Source: Mariniflexile gromovii
GTDB taxonomy: Bacteria; Bacteroidota; Bacteroidia; Flavobacteriales; Flavobacteriaceae
Reading direction: 5' to 3'
DNA length: 64,000 bases
NCBI RefSeq assembly: GCF_017814435.1
Contig: NZ_JAGJCB010000003.1
Span: 186,001-250,000, forward strand
Positions 3,563 through 19,674 of this stretch are shown here, piece by piece. The position numbers and the translations under genes are program-made. Below the pieces are notes generated by a model. It was not told the origin of the DNA and did no database searches. It was given only the letters and a program-made list of their open reading frames with translations. The first letter of the stretch is position 1. The number at the start of each line of letters is the position of its first letter.

Positions 3563-3590
3563 TCCACGAGTTCATAAACGTATTAATTGT

Positions 3591-3699
3591 GTTATCAAGA
3601 AAGGTAGAGGGAATAGACCCGTTGAAGCCTTGGCAACCTCCCGAATTTTCGGGAAAGGTGCTACGTTCTACTAGTAACTTTTAATACTAGAAAGATAAC
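3591..3699 (+). promoter_or_regulatory. SAM-I (S-box) riboswitch
   Basis: The region folds as an S-box aptamer. P1 is GTTATC (3591-3596) pairing with GATAAC (3694-3699). The conserved core follows in order: AAGAAAGGTAGAGGGA, then GACCCGTTGAAGCCTTGGCAACC, described here in two parts (GACCCGTTGAAG and CCTTGGCAACC), a P3 hairpin CCCGA/TCGGG, the AAGGTGCTACGTTC segment and a P4 hairpin CTAGTA/TACTAG. It precedes metH and metF, the classical S-box regulon. Binding of S-adenosylmethionine should repress the downstream methionine genes. Confidence 0.92.
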
Positions 3700-3727
3700 G
3701 AAAAGTGTATTTTTTTACTTTTCTTGA
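3700..3727 (+). promoter_or_regulatory. Candidate expression platform of the SAM riboswitch
   Basis: GAAAAGT (3700-3706) can pair with ACTTTTC (3717-3723) around a T-rich loop. Alternatively ACTTTTCTTGA (3717-3727) can pair over 11 positions (one G-U) with TCAAGAAAGGT (3595-3605), which contains the 5' side of P1 and the P1/P2 junction. The two states are mutually exclusive, as expected for a switch. Which state is on cannot be decided by eye. Confidence 0.45.
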
Positions 3728-7581: not shown

Positions 7582-7821
7582 ATGAAAGATAAATTTATAG
7601 AATTAACATTAGGTAGTTATATTATTTCTCACGGTTATAACGCGAAGCATAAAGAAATGATGGAACATATTCCTTCGGATAATTTTTCGAAGAAATTGAT
7701 ACCGGTTTCTAGAATAAAATCGATTAGCGAGAAATATATTTTAACCGACTATGTTGATGGACGATGGATTTATTGGGAATATGCAGAAGACTATAATGAG
7801 TTGAAAAAACTCTTGGTTTAG
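7582..7821 (+). CDS. Small protein of unknown function in the met operon
   Basis: I do not recognise this 79-residue protein. It has no signal peptide or membrane segment, is basic in the first two thirds (SKKLIPVSRIKSISEKY) and ends with an aromatic, acidic stretch (WIYWEYAEDYNELKK). It lies between metH and metF on the same strand, after two palindromic repeats. Coding potential is supported by an intact ATG frame and unbiased flavobacterial codon use. A role connected with methionine synthesis would be guesswork. Confidence 0.55.
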   Translation: MKDKFIELTLGSYIISHGYNAKHKEMMEHIPSDNFSKKLIPVSRIKSISEKYILTDYVDGRWIYWEYAEDYNELKKLLV

Positions 7822-7823
7822 TC

Positions 7824-7993
7824 TGCGTTAGCGATTGAAGCGACATCCTTTTTACCAAAGTAAATAGGCGTCATTACTAGGAGGTACGACGACGTAATCT
7901 GTTCAGATAAAGAGATTACCACAGAAAATCAGTAATTTTCTTCGCAATGACGTAAAAAGATATAGCGTAAAGCGCGACCCTTGTGGTAACGCC
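7824..7993. repeat. Composite repeat: GCGTTAG...GGTAACGCC element interrupted by a second repeat
   Basis: The ends GCGTTAGCGATTGAAGCGAC and GCGCGACCCTTGTGGTAACGCC (shown from GACCC to GTAACGCC) match the copies at 18411 and 61300, and the reversed copy at 29183. Between them about 7870-7953 begins CGTCATTACTAGGAGGTACG and ends TTCGCAATGACG, forming an inverted-repeat unit of another family. This looks like one small element inserted in another. No gene is seen in this gap. Confidence 0.65.
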
Positions 7994-14327: not shown

Positions 14328-15224
14328 CTATTTTGAAGTTAAATCTCTAAAAAGTGATTCTAGACTCGCGTTTTTTTGGTTCAATTGTAAAATCTTTAAT
14401 TTATTGTCGTGAGCAAAATCAAATACATGCGAACGCATATCTTCGGAAGTTGAAAAGGTTATTTCATAAACAAAATCGTGGGTATTGACCACGGTTTTAA
14501 CTTTTGGCAACTTTAATAAAAATGCATCTTCAACGCGGTAATCAAATTCAACAATAACAACTTGTTCTTTGTTTTCGTGTAAATCTTTAAGTTTTTTATC
14601 GGCTATAATTTCACCTTTATTGATGATGATAACGCGGTCGCACATAGCTTCAACCTCTTGCATAATATGGGTAGAAAGAAATACGGTTTTGGTTTTGCCA
14701 ATGTTTTTTATGAGGTTTCTAATTTCAACCAATTGGTTGGGGTCTAAACCTGTGGTAGGCTCATCTAAAATCAAAACATCAGGATTGTGTAACAAAGCAT
14801 TGGCTAAACCAACACGCTGGCGATACCCTTTGGAGAGTTGCCCAATTTTTTTATGGGCTTCAGGTGTTAATCCGGTAAGTTCGATGACCTCTTCAATGCG
14901 CTCTTTTTTAATTTTGTAAATACGCGCATTAAAAGCCAAATACTCCTTAATATACATGTCTAAATAAAGTGGATTATGCTCCGGTAAATAGCCCACACTT
15001 TGTTGTACTTGCTGCTTATTTGTGTTTACATCAAAACCATTTACGGTAGCAATGCCTGCGCTGGAATCTAGGTAAGTGGTTAAAATTTTCATCATGGTCG
15101 ATTTTCCCGCACCATTAGGACCTAAAAAACCAACAATTTCTGGTTTTTCAACTTTAAAAGAGATGTTGTTCAACGCTTTTTGGTTTCCGTAAAGTTTAGA
15201 AACGCCTTCTACCTGTATTGACAT
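14328..15224 (-). CDS. gldA: Gliding-motility ABC transporter ATP-binding protein GldA
   Basis: ATPase of 298 residues with Walker A GPNGAGKST (35-43), signature LSKGYRQRVGLA and Walker B VLILDEPTTGLD. Overall sequence, including the LPEHNPLYLDMYIKEYL segment, fits GldA, which in Flavobacterium johnsoniae works with the membrane proteins GldF and GldG and is needed for gliding. gldF and gldG are not in this window. The C-terminal 80 residues form a domain outside the nucleotide-binding fold. A generic Nod/CcmA-type exporter ATPase is the alternative call. Confidence 0.85.
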   Translation of the reverse strand: MSIQVEGVSKLYGNQKALNNISFKVEKPEIVGFLGPNGAGKSTMMKILTTYLDSSAGIATVNGFDVNTNKQQVQQSVGYLPEHNPLYLDMYIKEYLAFNARIYKIKKERIEEVIELTGLTPEAHKKIGQLSKGYRQRVGLANALLHNPDVLILDEPTTGLDPNQLVEIRNLIKNIGKTKTVFLSTHIMQEVEAMCDRVIIINKGEIIADKKLKDLHENKEQVVIVEFDYRVEDAFLLKLPKVKTVVNTHDFVYEITFSTSEDMRSHVFDFAHDNKLKILQLNQKNASLESLFRDLTSK

Positions 15225-15330
15225 ATTTAAAATTATTTATTCAAAAATAATGATTATCTAATGTAATGTATGTTTTGCTGTAAAATATTTAAAACTTTTA
15301 ATAAATATGAAAAAAAGGTTTTAAGCTGTT

Positions 15331-15359
15331 TTGATTTCTTAAAATATTAATTACTTTAG
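15331..15359 (+). promoter_or_regulatory. Candidate promoter of the Phe/Tyr operon
   Basis: TTG at 15331-15333 and TACTTTAG at 15352-15359 are separated by 18 bases, close to the Bacteroidota TTG-N17-23-TAnnTTTG arrangement with one mismatch. The predicted start near 15366 is only a few bases before the leader-peptide ATG. Confidence 0.45.
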
Positions 15360-15369
15360 CCACATAATT

Positions 15370-15450
15370 ATGAAGACAACAGTAGGTTATACATATTTTA
15401 GCGGTTTTTATTTTTTCTTTAGCAGAAAAAACGAGGCGTTGTATGTGTAA
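15370..15450 (+). CDS. Phe/Tyr-rich leader peptide of the aromatic amino-acid operon
   Basis: A 26-codon frame, ATG 15370 to TAA 15448, encodes a peptide whose centre reads YTYFSGFYFFF and which ends NEALYV. Five Phe and four Tyr in 26 residues, with three Phe codons in a row at 15412-15420, are what a ribosome-stalling attenuator peptide for phenylalanine and tyrosine genes should look like. The first structural gene downstream is prephenate dehydratase. The stop codon lies beyond the antiterminator half-site, as the model requires. No Shine-Dalgarno sequence is present; start may be near-leaderless. Confidence 0.8.
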   Translation: MKTTVGYTYFSGFYFFFSRKNEALYV

Positions 15451-15482
15451 TTTATAAACATAAATTTTAATACTAAGTCTCG
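15432..15482 (+). promoter_or_regulatory. Candidate antiterminator pairing of the Phe/Tyr attenuator
   Basis: CGAGGC-g-TT (15432-15440) can pair with AAGTCTCG (15475-15482), giving eight pairs with one G-U and one bulged G. This uses the 5' arm of the terminator, so the two structures exclude each other. A ribosome stalled at the Phe codons leaves 15432-15440 free; one that reaches the stop codon covers it. Confidence 0.6.
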
Positions 15483-15504
15483 ATGAAAATCGGGACTTTT
15501 TTTT
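15475..15504 (+). terminator. Intrinsic terminator (attenuator) ahead of prephenate dehydratase
   Basis: A ten-pair stem, AAGTCTCGAT with ATCGGGACTT (one G-U), closes a GAAA tetraloop and runs into eight T (15497-15504). It lies 4 bp before the pheA start codon and on the same strand as the operon, where it would cut off transcription unless antiterminated. Confidence 0.85.
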
Positions 15505-15508
15505 GTAT

Positions 15509-16336
15509 ATGATAAAAACAGTGGCCATACAGGGCGTAAAAGGATCTTTTCATCATATTGTGTCGCAGCAATATTTTGATAAGCCTGTTGATGCTATAGA
15601 ATGTTCAACATTCGATCAAGTAGTCGATTCTTTAATAACCAAAGAGTGTGATGCTGCTATTATGGCTTTGGAAAATTCTATAGCAGGTTCTATCATTCCT
15701 AATTATGCTTTAATAAACAAATTTGGATTGCACATTGTGGGTGAACATTATTTAGATATTCAGCACAATTTAATGGCATTGCCCAATCAAAATATAAAGG
15801 AAATTAAGGAAGTCTATTCGCACCCTATGGCGTTGTTGCAGTGTATGGAATTTTTCAAACTGCATCCGCACATTAAATTGGTCGAAGATAAAGATACGGC
15901 CGAGGTTGCCCAACGTATACAAGAAAAACAGCTTAAAGGTGTTGGTGCGATTGCCAGTGCTATGGCTGCCGAAATTTTTGAACTGGATATTTTAGCACCT
16001 AGTATTCAAACCATAAAGCATAACGAAACCCGTTTTGTTATTGTAAAACGTTTGAATTCTGAAATACCTGAAAACCAAATAAATAAAGCGTCGGTAAGGT
16101 TTGAAGCCGATCATAAACGAGGCAGTTTAGCTGCTATTTTAAATGTGATGAGCGATTGTAAGTTGAATTTAACCAAAATACAATCCTTACCAATTGTTGA
16201 AACACCTTGGAAGTATGCCTTTTTTGTGGATGTTACTTTTGAAACTTATGAAGAGTTTAAAAAAGCTAAATCTATCATTGAGATTATGGCTCAAGGATTT
16301 AAGGTATTAGGTGAATATAAAAATGCAAAAAAATGA
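15509..16336 (+). CDS. pheA: Prephenate dehydratase
   Basis: Decarboxylates and dehydrates prephenate to phenylpyruvate. The 275-residue protein begins at ATG 15509 (MIKTVAIQGVKGSFHH) and has the two-lobed PDT domain with the conserved NETRF motif (about 170), then a C-terminal ACT domain (about 195-270, GSLAAILNVM) that binds Phe for feedback inhibition. There is no chorismate mutase domain; that activity is on the DAHP synthase fusion downstream. Its stop overlaps the next start as ATGA. The attenuator just upstream indicates control by charged tRNA-Phe and/or tRNA-Tyr. Confidence 0.93.
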   Translation: MIKTVAIQGVKGSFHHIVSQQYFDKPVDAIECSTFDQVVDSLITKECDAAIMALENSIAGSIIPNYALINKFGLHIVGEHYLDIQHNLMALPNQNIKEIKEVYSHPMALLQCMEFFKLHPHIKLVEDKDTAEVAQRIQEKQLKGVGAIASAMAAEIFELDILAPSIQTIKHNETRFVIVKRLNSEIPENQINKASVRFEADHKRGSLAAILNVMSDCKLNLTKIQSLPIVETPWKYAFFVDVTFETYEEFKKAKSIIEIMAQGFKVLGEYKNAKK

Positions 16337-17478
16337 TTCAGGCAGCAAACAGATTACATACCGTTGAAGAATACTACTTCTCAAAAAAACTGAGAGAAGT
16401 GAATTTGCTTATTGCAAGTGGCAAGCCTATTATAAATTTAGGAATTGGAAGCCCTGATATGCAGCCGCCGCAAAAAGTGGTTGATGCTTTAAATGAAGGT
16501 TTCTCAAACCCGAGTGCCCATAAATACCAAAGCTACCAAGGTTTGCCTGAATTAAGGGAAGCGATTGCTGGATTTTATAAAACACATTTTAAAGTAAATT
16601 TAAGTCCTGGAACAGAAATATTGCCTTTAATGGGGAGTAAAGAAGGTATTATGCATATTTCTATGGCATATTTGAATGAAGGCGATGGTGTATTGATACC
16701 AAACCCAGGCTACCCAACGTATGCATCGGTTACTAATTTAGTGGGTGCAGAACCTGTGTTTTATGAGCTTGATGAAGCCAATAATTGGTTGCCCGATTTT
16801 AAGGCTTTAGAAAAATTAGATTTAACTAAAGTAAAATTAATGTGGGTAAATTACCCGCACATGCCAACAGGTGCGCAACCAAGTAAGTCTGTATTTGAAG
16901 AATTGGTGGCTTTTGGAAAAAAACATAGTATTTTAATTGTTAACGATAACCCCTACAGTTTTGTTTTAAACGATAACCCAAAAAGTATTTTAGAAGTTGA
17001 AGGCGCTAAAGAGGTTTGTTTAGAATTGAACTCTTTAAGTAAAACTTTTAACATGGCGGGTTGGCGCGTAGGCATGGTAGTAGGTGATAGCAAACACATA
17101 AACAATGTTTTAAAGGTAAAAAGCAACATGGATTCTGGGATGTTTTATGGCATTCAAAAAGGAGCCGTAGAAGCATTAAAATGTTCCAATATGTGGTTTA
17201 GCGCATTAAACAGCGTTTACAAACAGCGTAGGGATTTGGTATGGCAATTGGCCGATGCATTAAATTGTACCTATGATAAAAATGCGACCGGATTATTTGT
17301 TTGGGCAAAATTACCAGCTTTTGTAAAATCGGAGGAATTCATAGATTTGATATTGAAAAACAACCATATTTTCATTACACCGGGAACTATTTTTGGTAGT
17401 AAAGGTGAAGGATACATACGCTTTTCGTTATGTGCCTCAACCGAAGTTTTAGAAGAAGCAATTGCACGAGTAAAATGA
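16333..17478 (+). CDS. PLP-dependent aminotransferase (class I/II), probably aromatic
   Basis: The 381-residue protein carries the PLP lysine in ELNSLSKTFNMAGWRVG, with the conserved NPGYPTYASV and VNYPHMPTG segments and a C-terminal GEGYIRFSL arginine motif for the substrate carboxylate. It lies between prephenate dehydratase and prephenate dehydrogenase with four-base ATGA overlaps on both sides, so it most likely transaminates phenylpyruvate and hydroxyphenylpyruvate. Sequence alone would also allow aspartate or LL-diaminopimelate aminotransferase specificity. Confidence 0.87.
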   Translation: MIQAANRLHTVEEYYFSKKLREVNLLIASGKPIINLGIGSPDMQPPQKVVDALNEGFSNPSAHKYQSYQGLPELREAIAGFYKTHFKVNLSPGTEILPLMGSKEGIMHISMAYLNEGDGVLIPNPGYPTYASVTNLVGAEPVFYELDEANNWLPDFKALEKLDLTKVKLMWVNYPHMPTGAQPSKSVFEELVAFGKKHSILIVNDNPYSFVLNDNPKSILEVEGAKEVCLELNSLSKTFNMAGWRVGMVVGDSKHINNVLKVKSNMDSGMFYGIQKGAVEALKCSNMWFSALNSVYKQRRDLVWQLADALNCTYDKNATGLFVWAKLPAFVKSEEFIDLILKNNHIFITPGTIFGSKGEGYIRFSLCASTEVLEEAIARVK

Positions 17479-18326
17479 AGAACATATACATCATAGGAGT
17501 TGGTTTAATAGGCGGAAGTCTTGCTATTGATATTAAAAAGAAATATCCAGAAGTGGTTATTCACGGTATCAGTAGAAAAGATACAACGCTTGATGAAGCT
17601 TTGGCTCTTAATTTAATTGATAAAAAGGCAACCTTAGATGATATTGTTAATGCCGATTTAGTTATTATTTCCATTCCAGTTGATGCTACGGTAAAACTAT
17701 TGCCATCTATTTTAGATAAAATTCCTGATACAGGTTTGGTGGTAGATGCAGGCTCTACAAAAGCCGATATTTGTAAAGTGGTAGAAAACCACCCAAAACG
17801 TAGAAATTTTTTAGCAATGCATCCTATTGCTGGAACGGAACATTCTGGACCAAGTGCTGCTATTCCCGATTTGTTTGTTGGGAAAACGAATATTGTTTGT
17901 GAGGTTGAAAAAACAACCTTCAAGCTTCAAGAAAAAGCTTTGGAGCTTTTCAAATCTATTGGCATGCGTATTCGTTATATGAATCCGGAGGCGCACGATA
18001 AGCACATTGCATACGTATCGCATTTGTCGCACATCAGTTCGTTTATGCTAGGAAAAACGGTGATTGAAAAAGAAAAAAACGAACGTGATATTTTTGATAT
18101 GGCAGGCAGCGGATTTGCATCAACCGTGCGTTTGGCAAAAAGTTCGCCAGAAATGTGGACGCCAATTTTTAAACAGAACAAACAAAATGTTATAGAAACA
18201 TTAGAAGAATACATCACAAACCTAACACATTTTAAAGATCTAATGAAAGGGGATGATTTTGATGCTATTTTTAATGAAATGAAAGAAACTAATCATATAA
18301 AGGATATTTTAAACGGCATTGTTTAA
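17475..18326 (+). CDS. tyrA: Prephenate dehydrogenase
   Basis: NAD(P)-dependent oxidative decarboxylation of prephenate to hydroxyphenylpyruvate. The protein is 283 residues from ATG 17475, starting MKNIYIIGVGLIGGSLA with the GxGxxGxS dinucleotide loop, followed by HPIAGTEHSGP containing the catalytic His region, and a helical C-terminal domain with YVSHLSHISSF. A longer open frame begins inside the previous gene, but the ATGA overlap and the Rossmann start fix the true beginning. No ACT domain is attached. Confidence 0.92.
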   Translation: MKNIYIIGVGLIGGSLAIDIKKKYPEVVIHGISRKDTTLDEALALNLIDKKATLDDIVNADLVIISIPVDATVKLLPSILDKIPDTGLVVDAGSTKADICKVVENHPKRRNFLAMHPIAGTEHSGPSAAIPDLFVGKTNIVCEVEKTTFKLQEKALELFKSIGMRIRYMNPEAHDKHIAYVSHLSHISSFMLGKTVIEKEKNERDIFDMAGSGFASTVRLAKSSPEMWTPIFKQNKQNVIETLEEYITNLTHFKDLMKGDDFDAIFNEMKETNHIKDILNGIV

Positions 18327-18402
18327 GGCCCCACCTAACCTCCCCAAAGGGGAGGGATGTATAGGAAGGAGTAAGTATTCCCCTCCTTTGGAGGGGTTAG
18401 GG
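18327..18402. repeat. Inverted pair of CCTAACC-CTCC-AAAGG repeats
   Basis: CCACCTAACCTCCCCAAAGG near 18333 is repeated in inverted form at 18378-18404 (TTCCCCTCCTTTGGAGGGGT and on). The pair can fold into a long hairpin just after the tyrA stop. It is a type frequent in Bacteroidota intergenic DNA. No T-run follows. Confidence 0.6.
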
Positions 18403-18410
18403 GAGGCTTC

Positions 18411-18493
18411 CGCGTTAGGGATTGCAGCGGAAAACCCACAGCGACGCAGGAGCGAGGACTTGTAGCGAAAAGCCCGACCCCATAGGGGTAACG
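18411..18493. repeat. GCGTTAG...GGTAACGCC repeat, copy 2
   Basis: Begins GCGTTAGGGATTGCAGCGG and ends GGGGTAACGCC with AAAGCCCGACCCC before the end. Related to 7824-7993, 29183-29266 (reverse) and 61300-61360. The remaining DNA to the next gene (18494-18591) is AT-rich with a small hairpin ATGTGA/TCACAT at 18547-18562 and nothing else I recognise. Confidence 0.68.
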
Positions 18494-18591
18494 CCCAAAA
18501 GAAATGAAAAAGAGTAAATATTAATTATAAAAAATTATTTCGAAAACATGTGAACCCTCACATAGAGTAGATTTAAAGTAAATCAAAAAAA

Positions 18592-19674
18592 ATGGAAAAC
18601 AAAAAAGAAATGAGAACGTGGTTAGATGACTTGAATTTGAGTCATCCGTTGGTAATTGCAGGACCTTGCAGTGCTGAAACAGAAGAGCAAGTATTAAAAA
18701 TAGCGCACGAGCTAAAAAATACAGATGTAAGTTATTTTAGAGCAGGTATTTGGAAACCAAGAACACGTCCAGGAATGTTTGAAGGTGTTGGTGCTTTAGG
18801 CCTAAAATGGTTACAAAAAGTAAAAGCGGAAACTGGTATGAAAATTTGTACCGAGGTTGCAAACGCTGCCCATGTAAAATTAGCTTTAGAGCATGATGTA
18901 GATTTATTATGGATTGGTGCACGTTCTACGGTTAGCCCATTCATTATGCAAGAAATTGCAGATGCTTTAGAAGGAACTGATAAACCTGTGTTGATTAAAA
19001 ACCCAGTGAATCCAGATTTAGCCTTGTGGTTAGGTGGTATTGAGCGTATTTACAAAGCAGGTGTTAAAAATATTGGTGCTATTCATAGAGGGTTTTCAAC
19101 GTATGAAAAAACGAAGTATAGAAACAACCCAGAATGGCAATTGGCTATTGAGTTTCAAAACAAATATCCAGATATTCCTTTAATTAACGATCCGTCGCAT
19201 ATTACTGGAAAACGTGATATGATTTTTGATGTGTCTCAAACGGCTTTAGATTTGAATTTTGATGGATTGATGATTGAAACACATTACGATCCAGATAACG
19301 CTTGGAGTGATGCATCGCAACAAGTAACGCCAGCAAGCTTAATTCAAATTATGAAAGATTTGAAAATAAGAAAAGAAACCGATCAGGAAGCAGATTACAA
19401 CAAGCAATTAGATAATTTAAGAGCACAAATTGATGTGGTTGATAACCAGATTATAGAATTACTTGGAAAACGTATGAAAGCTGCCGATAGCATTGGAGCA
19501 CTTAAAAAATCTAAAAACGTTGCTGTATTACAAAGCAAACGTTGGAACGAGATTTTGGGTAAAATGGTTATTGAAGGTGAGTCTCAAGGCTTGAGTGAAG
19601 AGTTCATTTTAAAAATGTTTAAAGCTATTCACCAAGAATCAATCAATCACCAAGAGAAAATTATTAACGGATAA
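18592..19674 (+). CDS. 3-deoxy-7-phosphoheptulonate synthase fused to chorismate mutase
   Basis: Catalyses the first committed step of the shikimate pathway and the chorismate-to-prephenate branch. Residues about 1-260 are a DAHP synthase of the KDPS-like type Ib class (VIAGPCSAETEEQ, FRAGIWKPRTRPG, GAIHRGFS, LINDPSHITGKRDM). Residues about 275-360 form an AroQ chorismate mutase (LDNLRAQIDVVDNQIIELLGKRM and the following helix; KMFKAIHQESI). The fusion supplies the mutase activity absent from the separate pheA and tyrA products upstream, making the four genes a complete terminal Phe/Tyr unit. It is separated from tyrA by a repeat-filled gap and followed by a strong terminator. Confidence 0.92.
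   Translation: MENKKEMRTWLDDLNLSHPLVIAGPCSAETEEQVLKIAHELKNTDVSYFRAGIWKPRTRPGMFEGVGALGLKWLQKVKAETGMKICTEVANAAHVKLALEHDVDLLWIGARSTVSPFIMQEIADALEGTDKPVLIKNPVNPDLALWLGGIERIYKAGVKNIGAIHRGFSTYEKTKYRNNPEWQLAIEFQNKYPDIPLINDPSHITGKRDMIFDVSQTALDLNFDGLMIETHYDPDNAWSDASQQVTPASLIQIMKDLKIRKETDQEADYNKQLDNLRAQIDVVDNQIIELLGKRMKAADSIGALKKSKNVAVLQSKRWNEILGKMVIEGESQGLSEEFILKMFKAIHQESINHQEKIING

Follow-up and report, generated by a model that had tools for sequence, protein, structure and literature searches.

A predicted Phe/Tyr attenuator in front of pheA in Mariniflexile gromovii, very probably kept in nearly all sampled Flavobacteriaceae

The region directly upstream of the prephenate dehydratase gene (pheA) of M. 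gromovii has the features of a ribosome-mediated attenuator. Judged from the sequence, and with a probability of about 0.93, it responds to the levels of charged Phe-tRNA and Tyr-tRNA and regulates pheA, the following aminotransferase gene and tyrA, and perhaps also the gene encoding DAHP synthase/chorismate mutase. A first-pass annotation of the 64,000-nt stretch of DNA analysed here (the window) had read the leader architecture as that of ribosome-mediated attenuation, and this reading gained support from the conservation of the leader, from joint changes in its pairing strands and from the geometry of its codons. The following features, all on the plus strand, were recognized in the window:

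15330–15359, plus strand: predicted Bacteroidetes-type promoter, TTTG at 15330–15333, an 18-nt spacer and TACTTTAG at 15352–15359
15370–15450, plus strand: leader peptide ORF of 26 codons, MKTTVGYTYFSGFYFFFSRKNEALYV, kept before pheA in relatives
15382–15407, plus strand: element 1, the 5' side of a putative 1:2 protector/pause hairpin, leader codons 5–13 (from folds)
15406–15420, plus strand: sensing codons F-Y-F-F-F, as read from the sequence
15432–15444, plus strand: element 2, 5' strand of the antiterminator, CGAGGC at 15432–15437 plus GTAT at 15441–15444
15449–15466, plus strand: AT-rich inner hairpin AATTTAT/ATAAATT, which stacks inside the antiterminator in the fold
15475–15484, plus strand: element 3, 5' arm of the terminator, common to the antiterminator
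15489–15504, plus strand: element 4, 3' arm of the terminator with the T-run
15509–16336, plus strand: pheA, prephenate dehydratase (Pfam PF00800, E 4.8e-56)
16333–17478, plus strand: class I/II aminotransferase (Pfam PF00155)
17475–18326, plus strand: tyrA, prephenate dehydrogenase (NCBIfam NF006307 above cut-off; PF02153, PF20463)
18592–19674, plus strand: DAHP synthase-chorismate mutase fusion (PF00793 and PF01817)

The peptide MKTTVGYTYFSGFYFFFSRKNEALYV contains five Phe and four Tyr residues and its TAA stop codon is located at 15448–15450. Nine codons of this 26-codon ORF specify Phe or Tyr, the two amino acids that the operon makes. The coordinates and composition of this ORF, annotated earlier as lying before prephenate dehydratase, were re-read and found correct, with Pfam in agreement on the gene. 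With both strands of the 64-kb window considered, no other ATG-initiated ORF of 12–45 codons had at least seven Phe/Tyr per 11 codons. A joint rule demanding at least five aromatics in nine codons and then a contiguous-stem terminator, within set distances, was passed by only one of the 51 ORFs of at least 150 codons in the window, and that one was pheA. Among other ORFs of at least 150 codons in the relatives' loci (at least 6.5 kb), one of 363 passed, a rough rate given that many of these control ORFs represent the same few neighbour genes across species and are not independent.

The terminator (15475–15504) consists of a 10-bp stem with a GAAA loop (15475–15498) and a T-run (15499–15504), which ends 4 nt before the pheA ATG (15509), so that an intrinsic terminator separates the ORF from the first gene. 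Two terminator-like sites were detected in 1.1 kb, compared with 0.8 (sd 1.0) in shuffled sequences. The duplex of CGAGGC (15432–15437) with GTCTCG (15477–15482) had an energy of −9.9 kcal/mol and a p value of about 0.01 against 100 dinucleotide shuffles, which is the floor of the test. Positions and duplex agree with the earlier proposal of a half-site pairing with the 5' arm of a GAAA-loop terminator 4 nt from the pheA ATG. When the complete RNA was folded from element 2 on, the terminator won (−17.5 kcal/mol), and the antiterminator fold (−14.6 kcal/mol) was seen only when the terminator 3' arm was left out; therefore, the switch would have to act during transcription, before the 3' arm is made, as in other attenuators. 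Antiterminator and terminator exclude each other through the common 5' arm, in agreement with the shuffles, arm swaps and joint changes described below. A sequence similar to the inner AT-rich hairpin was found by eye in most of the relatives printed.

The minimum-energy fold of the whole leader (−35.7 kcal/mol) combined the terminator with a long hairpin, in which 15382–15407 pairs with 15433–15455 and most of element 2 is occupied. Such a structure was absent from the first-pass annotation, which had described a complete attenuator made of terminator and antiterminator; these two stood, but the set was not complete with them, as the fold revealed a third. The 1:2 pairing in the window reached p 0.02 against shuffles and p 0.06 against synonymous recoding, and its assignment as a protector/pause hairpin in this leader is made with moderate confidence. 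Across a set of 151 loci (the window and the passing loci L082–L277), the pairing averaged −13.3 kcal/mol in comparison with −8.5 kcal/mol in shuffles, with p 0.05 reached by 81 of the 151. Synonymous recodings paired less strongly on average than the actual leader in 133 of the 151 loci (p 0.05 in 39), and foreign leaders did so in 140. The presence of the 1:2 hairpin across this set can thus be proposed with good confidence. According to the fold, protector hairpin and antiterminator are mutually exclusive; the cross-locus statistics are moderate.

We infer transcription start, termination, stalling and the response to amino acids from these elements, and the proposed switch would operate as follows. 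With no ribosome on the leader, 15382–15407 would pair with 15433–15455, as in the computed fold, the terminator at 15475–15504 would form and transcription would end. By sequestering the half-site, the 1:2 hairpin would leave termination as the default outcome. Under a shortage of Phe or Tyr, the ribosome would stall at 15406–15420, melt element 1 and halt short of element 2, and the freed element 2 (15432–15437) would pair with 15477–15482, allowing RNA polymerase to read on. When both Phe and Tyr are plentiful, the ribosome would reach the stop at 15448 and cover element 2, and the terminator would form.

For the analysis of conservation, up to 400 nt 5' of pheA were gathered from 283 loci (261 distinct), comprising the window with 80 close relatives, the loci from order, class and family searches, and 120 stretches. 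The family search sampled 199 genomes from 198 genera, roughly one for each, and found PheA in 183; the family loci used were the matches listed among these 183 genomes, so that the most distant ones lay outside the sample. In the named collection, the closest PheA was that of Mariniflexile sp. AS56 (95% identity), followed by Mariniflexile maritimum and others (88%). A strict rule for leader and stems was passed by 80 of the 81 close sequences, the one miss (L073) being a contig that ends 150 nt 5' of pheA. Orthologous upstream regions without a Phe/Tyr frame or competing stems had been named beforehand as the observation that would speak against the attenuator. Among further genus-level Flavobacteriaceae loci, non-identical to the earlier ones and taken from the matches listed, 115 of 120 passed, keeping both the frame and the stems with pairing-preserving changes. 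Beyond these, leader and stems were recognizable by eye in L195 and L260, and no aromatic leader was found in the 400 nt 5' of pheA in L182, L229 and L268, family loci with PheA. The attenuator is very probably kept in nearly all sampled Flavobacteriaceae.

In the order and class searches, 35 of 54 loci passed, which included 20 of 20 from the own family and 15 of 34 from others, and one of six further order loci did so. Outside Flavobacteriaceae, the strict rule was passed by 16 of 40 loci and failed by 24, some of the failures having an aromatic ORF. Ten loci missed the rule despite at least seven aromatics per nine codons (L195, L260, L278, L279, L280, L108, L124, L131, L132 and L135), and an interrupted stem, a long loop or a cut tail were among the reasons. 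These data indicate that the aromatic amino acid genes of a major environmental family are, as a rule, under textbook ribosome-mediated attenuation, and comparable arrangements occur in other families of the class.

The pairing of element 2 with the terminator 5' arm was compared with dinucleotide shuffles in all 231 passing loci; p 0.05 or better was obtained in 206 of them (the floor of 0.01 in 136) and missed in 25. In the 151-locus set, pairing with the own arm averaged −12.1 kcal/mol and pairing with arms from a different sequence class −7.8 kcal/mol; the own arm gave a lower value than the mean of foreign arms in 137 of the 146 loci with a recognized core. The cores of the 5' arm were GTCTCG (61 loci), GTCCCG (43), GTCCTG (15) and ATCCCG (9), with GCCTCG (7), ATCCTG (6), GTTCCG (4) and ATCTCG (1) being rarer. 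Element 2 and the 3' arm tracked these changes, partly via G-U steps. Joint changes of the three paired bases that keep both helices were seen, for example G-C-G (element 2, then the two terminator arms) in 77 loci and A-T-A in 36 at one position, although agreement in such pair counts is favoured by construction, element 2 having been chosen as the best 5'-arm partner 3' of the aromatic cluster; this selection is allowed for by the shuffles and swaps, not by the counts. On a 43-row PheA tree, a quick one with long branches, the arm core must have changed at least 11 times. Independent tree pairs, among the contrasts listed (two or three per position), went in the expected direction, none significantly, their number being too small.

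Another device was also considered, in which the short ORF is there by chance and the hairpin serves only to terminate transcription from upstream or to mask the start of pheA. The closeness of the T-run to the pheA ATG (4 nt) suits it, and the hairpin could also hamper pheA initiation. Nevertheless, the upstream gene (14328–15224) is located on the opposite strand, which speaks against a terminator for its transcript, and the distance from terminator to pheA varied from 7 to 239 nt among the loci listed, hence occlusion of the start is not conserved. In contrast to this distance, the aromatic ORF and element 2 are conserved, and a terminator-only or translational device is considered very unlikely.

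The ribosome-mediated attenuator is further supported by the placement of its codons. The front edge of a ribosome lies about 15 nt ahead. In the 231 loci, 8–18 nt (5th–95th percentile; median 12) separated element 2 from the final codon of the aromatic cluster. Counted in codons before element 2, the share of Phe/Tyr/Trp in 116 family leaders was 95–100% at positions −8 to −5, 41% at −4 and 3% at −3; the search for element 2 only 3' of the cluster sharpens this edge, but does not force the short steady gap. With an aromatic codon in the A-site, the front edge would stand just before element 2, which fits the codon profile. Thus, gap and profile place the sensing codons where a stalled ribosome would free the antiterminator, with the anchoring on element 2 sharpening the edge. 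The stop codon was located 11–17 nt past the start of element 2 in at least 82 of the 116 family leaders and preceded element 2 in nine. At least three Phe residues were present in 115 of the 116, at least two Tyr residues in 115 and Trp in 80. The regular spacing of sensing codons and element 2 also offers a route to further leaders.

The composition of the peptide bears on another explanation, an arrest peptide. TnaC is such a peptide, whose nascent chain senses a free amino acid in the exit tunnel, and the pheA leader could likewise sense free Phe or Tyr and stall at a set place. In the close clade, the leader is strongly conserved beyond its aromatics (e.g., YTYFNNWFYFFFSKRNEALYV), as would be expected of an arrest sequence, although the 1:2 and 2:3 pairings carried by the codons and the short divergence can explain this conservation. 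Across genera, aromatic residues had an aromatic counterpart in 82% of comparisons, whereas non-aromatic residues were identical in 15%, and Phe and Tyr interchange at key codons. What persists is chiefly aromaticity and not the other residues, and this favours tRNA starvation over a sequence-specific arrest peptide, which is therefore regarded as unlikely.

All genes from pheA to the DAHP synthase fusion serve the synthesis of Phe and Tyr. The fusion gene is separated from tyrA by a gap of 265 nt and is perhaps part of the pheA transcript. In this gap (18327–18591), a GC-rich inverted motif, cctccccaaaggggagg ... cccctcctttggagggg, was noticed, which resembles a dispersed repeat.

The pheL-pheA leader of E. 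coli has a Phe-rich peptide, three alternative hairpins and a terminator before pheA. The leader described here resembles this enterobacterial type (Phe_leader, RF01859) in its Phe-rich peptide, alternative hairpins and terminator before pheA, but mixes Tyr and Phe codons and is AT-rich. Such a mixture is in keeping with an operon that includes tyrA. The RF01859 model gave the best Rfam row over 15383–15505 up to E 10 (21 bits, E 0.18), but stayed far below its gathering score of 55 at the pheA leader. A likeness also exists to Bacteroid-trp (RF01692), a peptide-leader RNA of Bacteroidetes (Weinberg et al. 2010, PMC2864571, as far as its available text goes), which differs in the amino acid concerned and did not match the pheA leader at any E value up to 10.

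A structured 5' region ahead of an amino-acid operon might also be a ligand-binding riboswitch or a T-box for Phe/Tyr. However, no Rfam match was found at the pheA leader at the gathering threshold, and the sole riboswitch row up to E 10 was SAM-II on the other strand (12.7 bits, E 6.4), which leaves this explanation extremely unlikely in comparison with an attenuator read by the ribosome.

Of the open papers searched, only PMC9723704 bears on a flavobacterial pheA leader. In its available text, this 2021 study of Flavobacterium psychrophilum reports strong clues for leader-peptide attenuation 5' of amino-acid operons, and 5' elements before pheA and hisG, without an Rfam match, that recur in further genera of Flavobacteriaceae; the anatomy of the pheA element is not given in that text. 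The first-pass annotation, to which no description of this particular leader in Flavobacteriaceae was known, therefore has to be corrected, since attenuation before amino-acid operons and a conserved pheA 5' element are both reported there. For Bacteroides thetaiotaomicron, the available text of PMC7366714 mentions short ORFs reminiscent of attenuation leaders without naming pheA, and no mention of pheA occurs in the available text of PMC4833913. To the published record, the present sequence comparison adds how far the arrangement extends through the family and part of the class, how three strands change jointly, a 1:2 hairpin and the placement of the codons.

The 5' end of the leader RNA was approached through the promoter. 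A scan for sigma-70 promoters returned four sites in comparison with 5.3 expected in shuffles and was replaced by the Bacteroidetes consensus. The arrangement TTTG-N18-TACTTTAG agrees with the flavobacterial consensus given in the accessible part of PMC9723704, in which the −7 element is TAnnTTTG (−12 to −5). Transcription is predicted to start near 15364, giving a 5'UTR of about 6 nt. By eye, no Shine-Dalgarno-like stretch was present in the few bases 5' of the leader ATG. According to the same portions of PMC9723704, the 5'UTRs of F. psychrophilum have a median length of 24 nt, 5.5% of its mRNAs are leaderless, and mRNAs of these bacteria have no Shine-Dalgarno sites.

A promoter-like box was located in 145 of the 151 loci, a figure that carries no chance control. 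In 106 of the 145 it stood 5–22 nt before the ATG, corresponding to a predicted 5'UTR of about 1–18 nt, and in the rest it was farther off. The near-leaderless RNA suggested in the first-pass annotation is thus retained for M. gromovii as a predicted short 5'UTR, but not as a defining trait, because the distance of the box varies among relatives. A similar promoter sequence was seen in most of the 79 relatives printed and was absent in L003, L042, L044 and L058. In these four, a GTTGCATGT-AAC/GAC-like stretch directly before the leader replaces the usual promoter, and the leader of L044 would begin at GTG or at a farther in-frame ATG.

A broader reading, to which we give somewhat less than even odds, is that a dual Phe/Tyr attenuator controlling the whole aromatic pathway end comes from an ancestor of Bacteroidia, with leaders without Shine-Dalgarno sequences and with very short 5'UTRs. 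If this is true, the ribosome must load on RNA that is barely out of the polymerase.

Leaders for other amino acids were also found in the genome, so that the pheA leader belongs to a group. A His leader, MNFIQSHHHHFQICSQAK, precedes hisG (L284, reverse strand) and has the half-site CTCAAGCG and the terminator AAACCCGTTTGA/TCAAGCGGGTTT, and an Ile/Val leader, MNKQILNSISINVVVIISHR, with the half-site GGAAGGCTT and a terminator, precedes ilvD (L285, about 1028–1148). In both, the half-site pairs with a terminator arm in the fold. Before trpE, a Trp leader, MNTILNNTWWWSLQNLRFVK, with a strong terminator was located (L288, 1288–1430), which matched Bacteroid-trp RF01692 with 66.9 bits (gathering score 49); its fold after the Trp codons showed no strong antiterminator (−4.7 kcal/mol). 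Among the four leaders seen in this genome, Rfam 15 detects only the Trp leader at its threshold, which makes new Rfam family models feasible. No leader was found at the second Anth_synt_I_N locus (L289) or at two homoserine dehydrogenase loci, where the stretches inspected lay largely inside long genes. The pattern [FY][FY]FFF, scanned over the own genome, occurred at 57 and 64 sites in comparison with 47 and 47 for the reversed pattern and discriminates weakly.

Other RNA elements were noticed in passing. Near the ilvD leader, on the other strand, a SAM-II match of 53.6 bits was present (L285, 838–920). In the window, Rfam matches at the gathering level were obtained for a SAM riboswitch at 3589–3701 (83.2 bits) and for a Flavo-1 RNA at 7816–7983 (47.5 bits).
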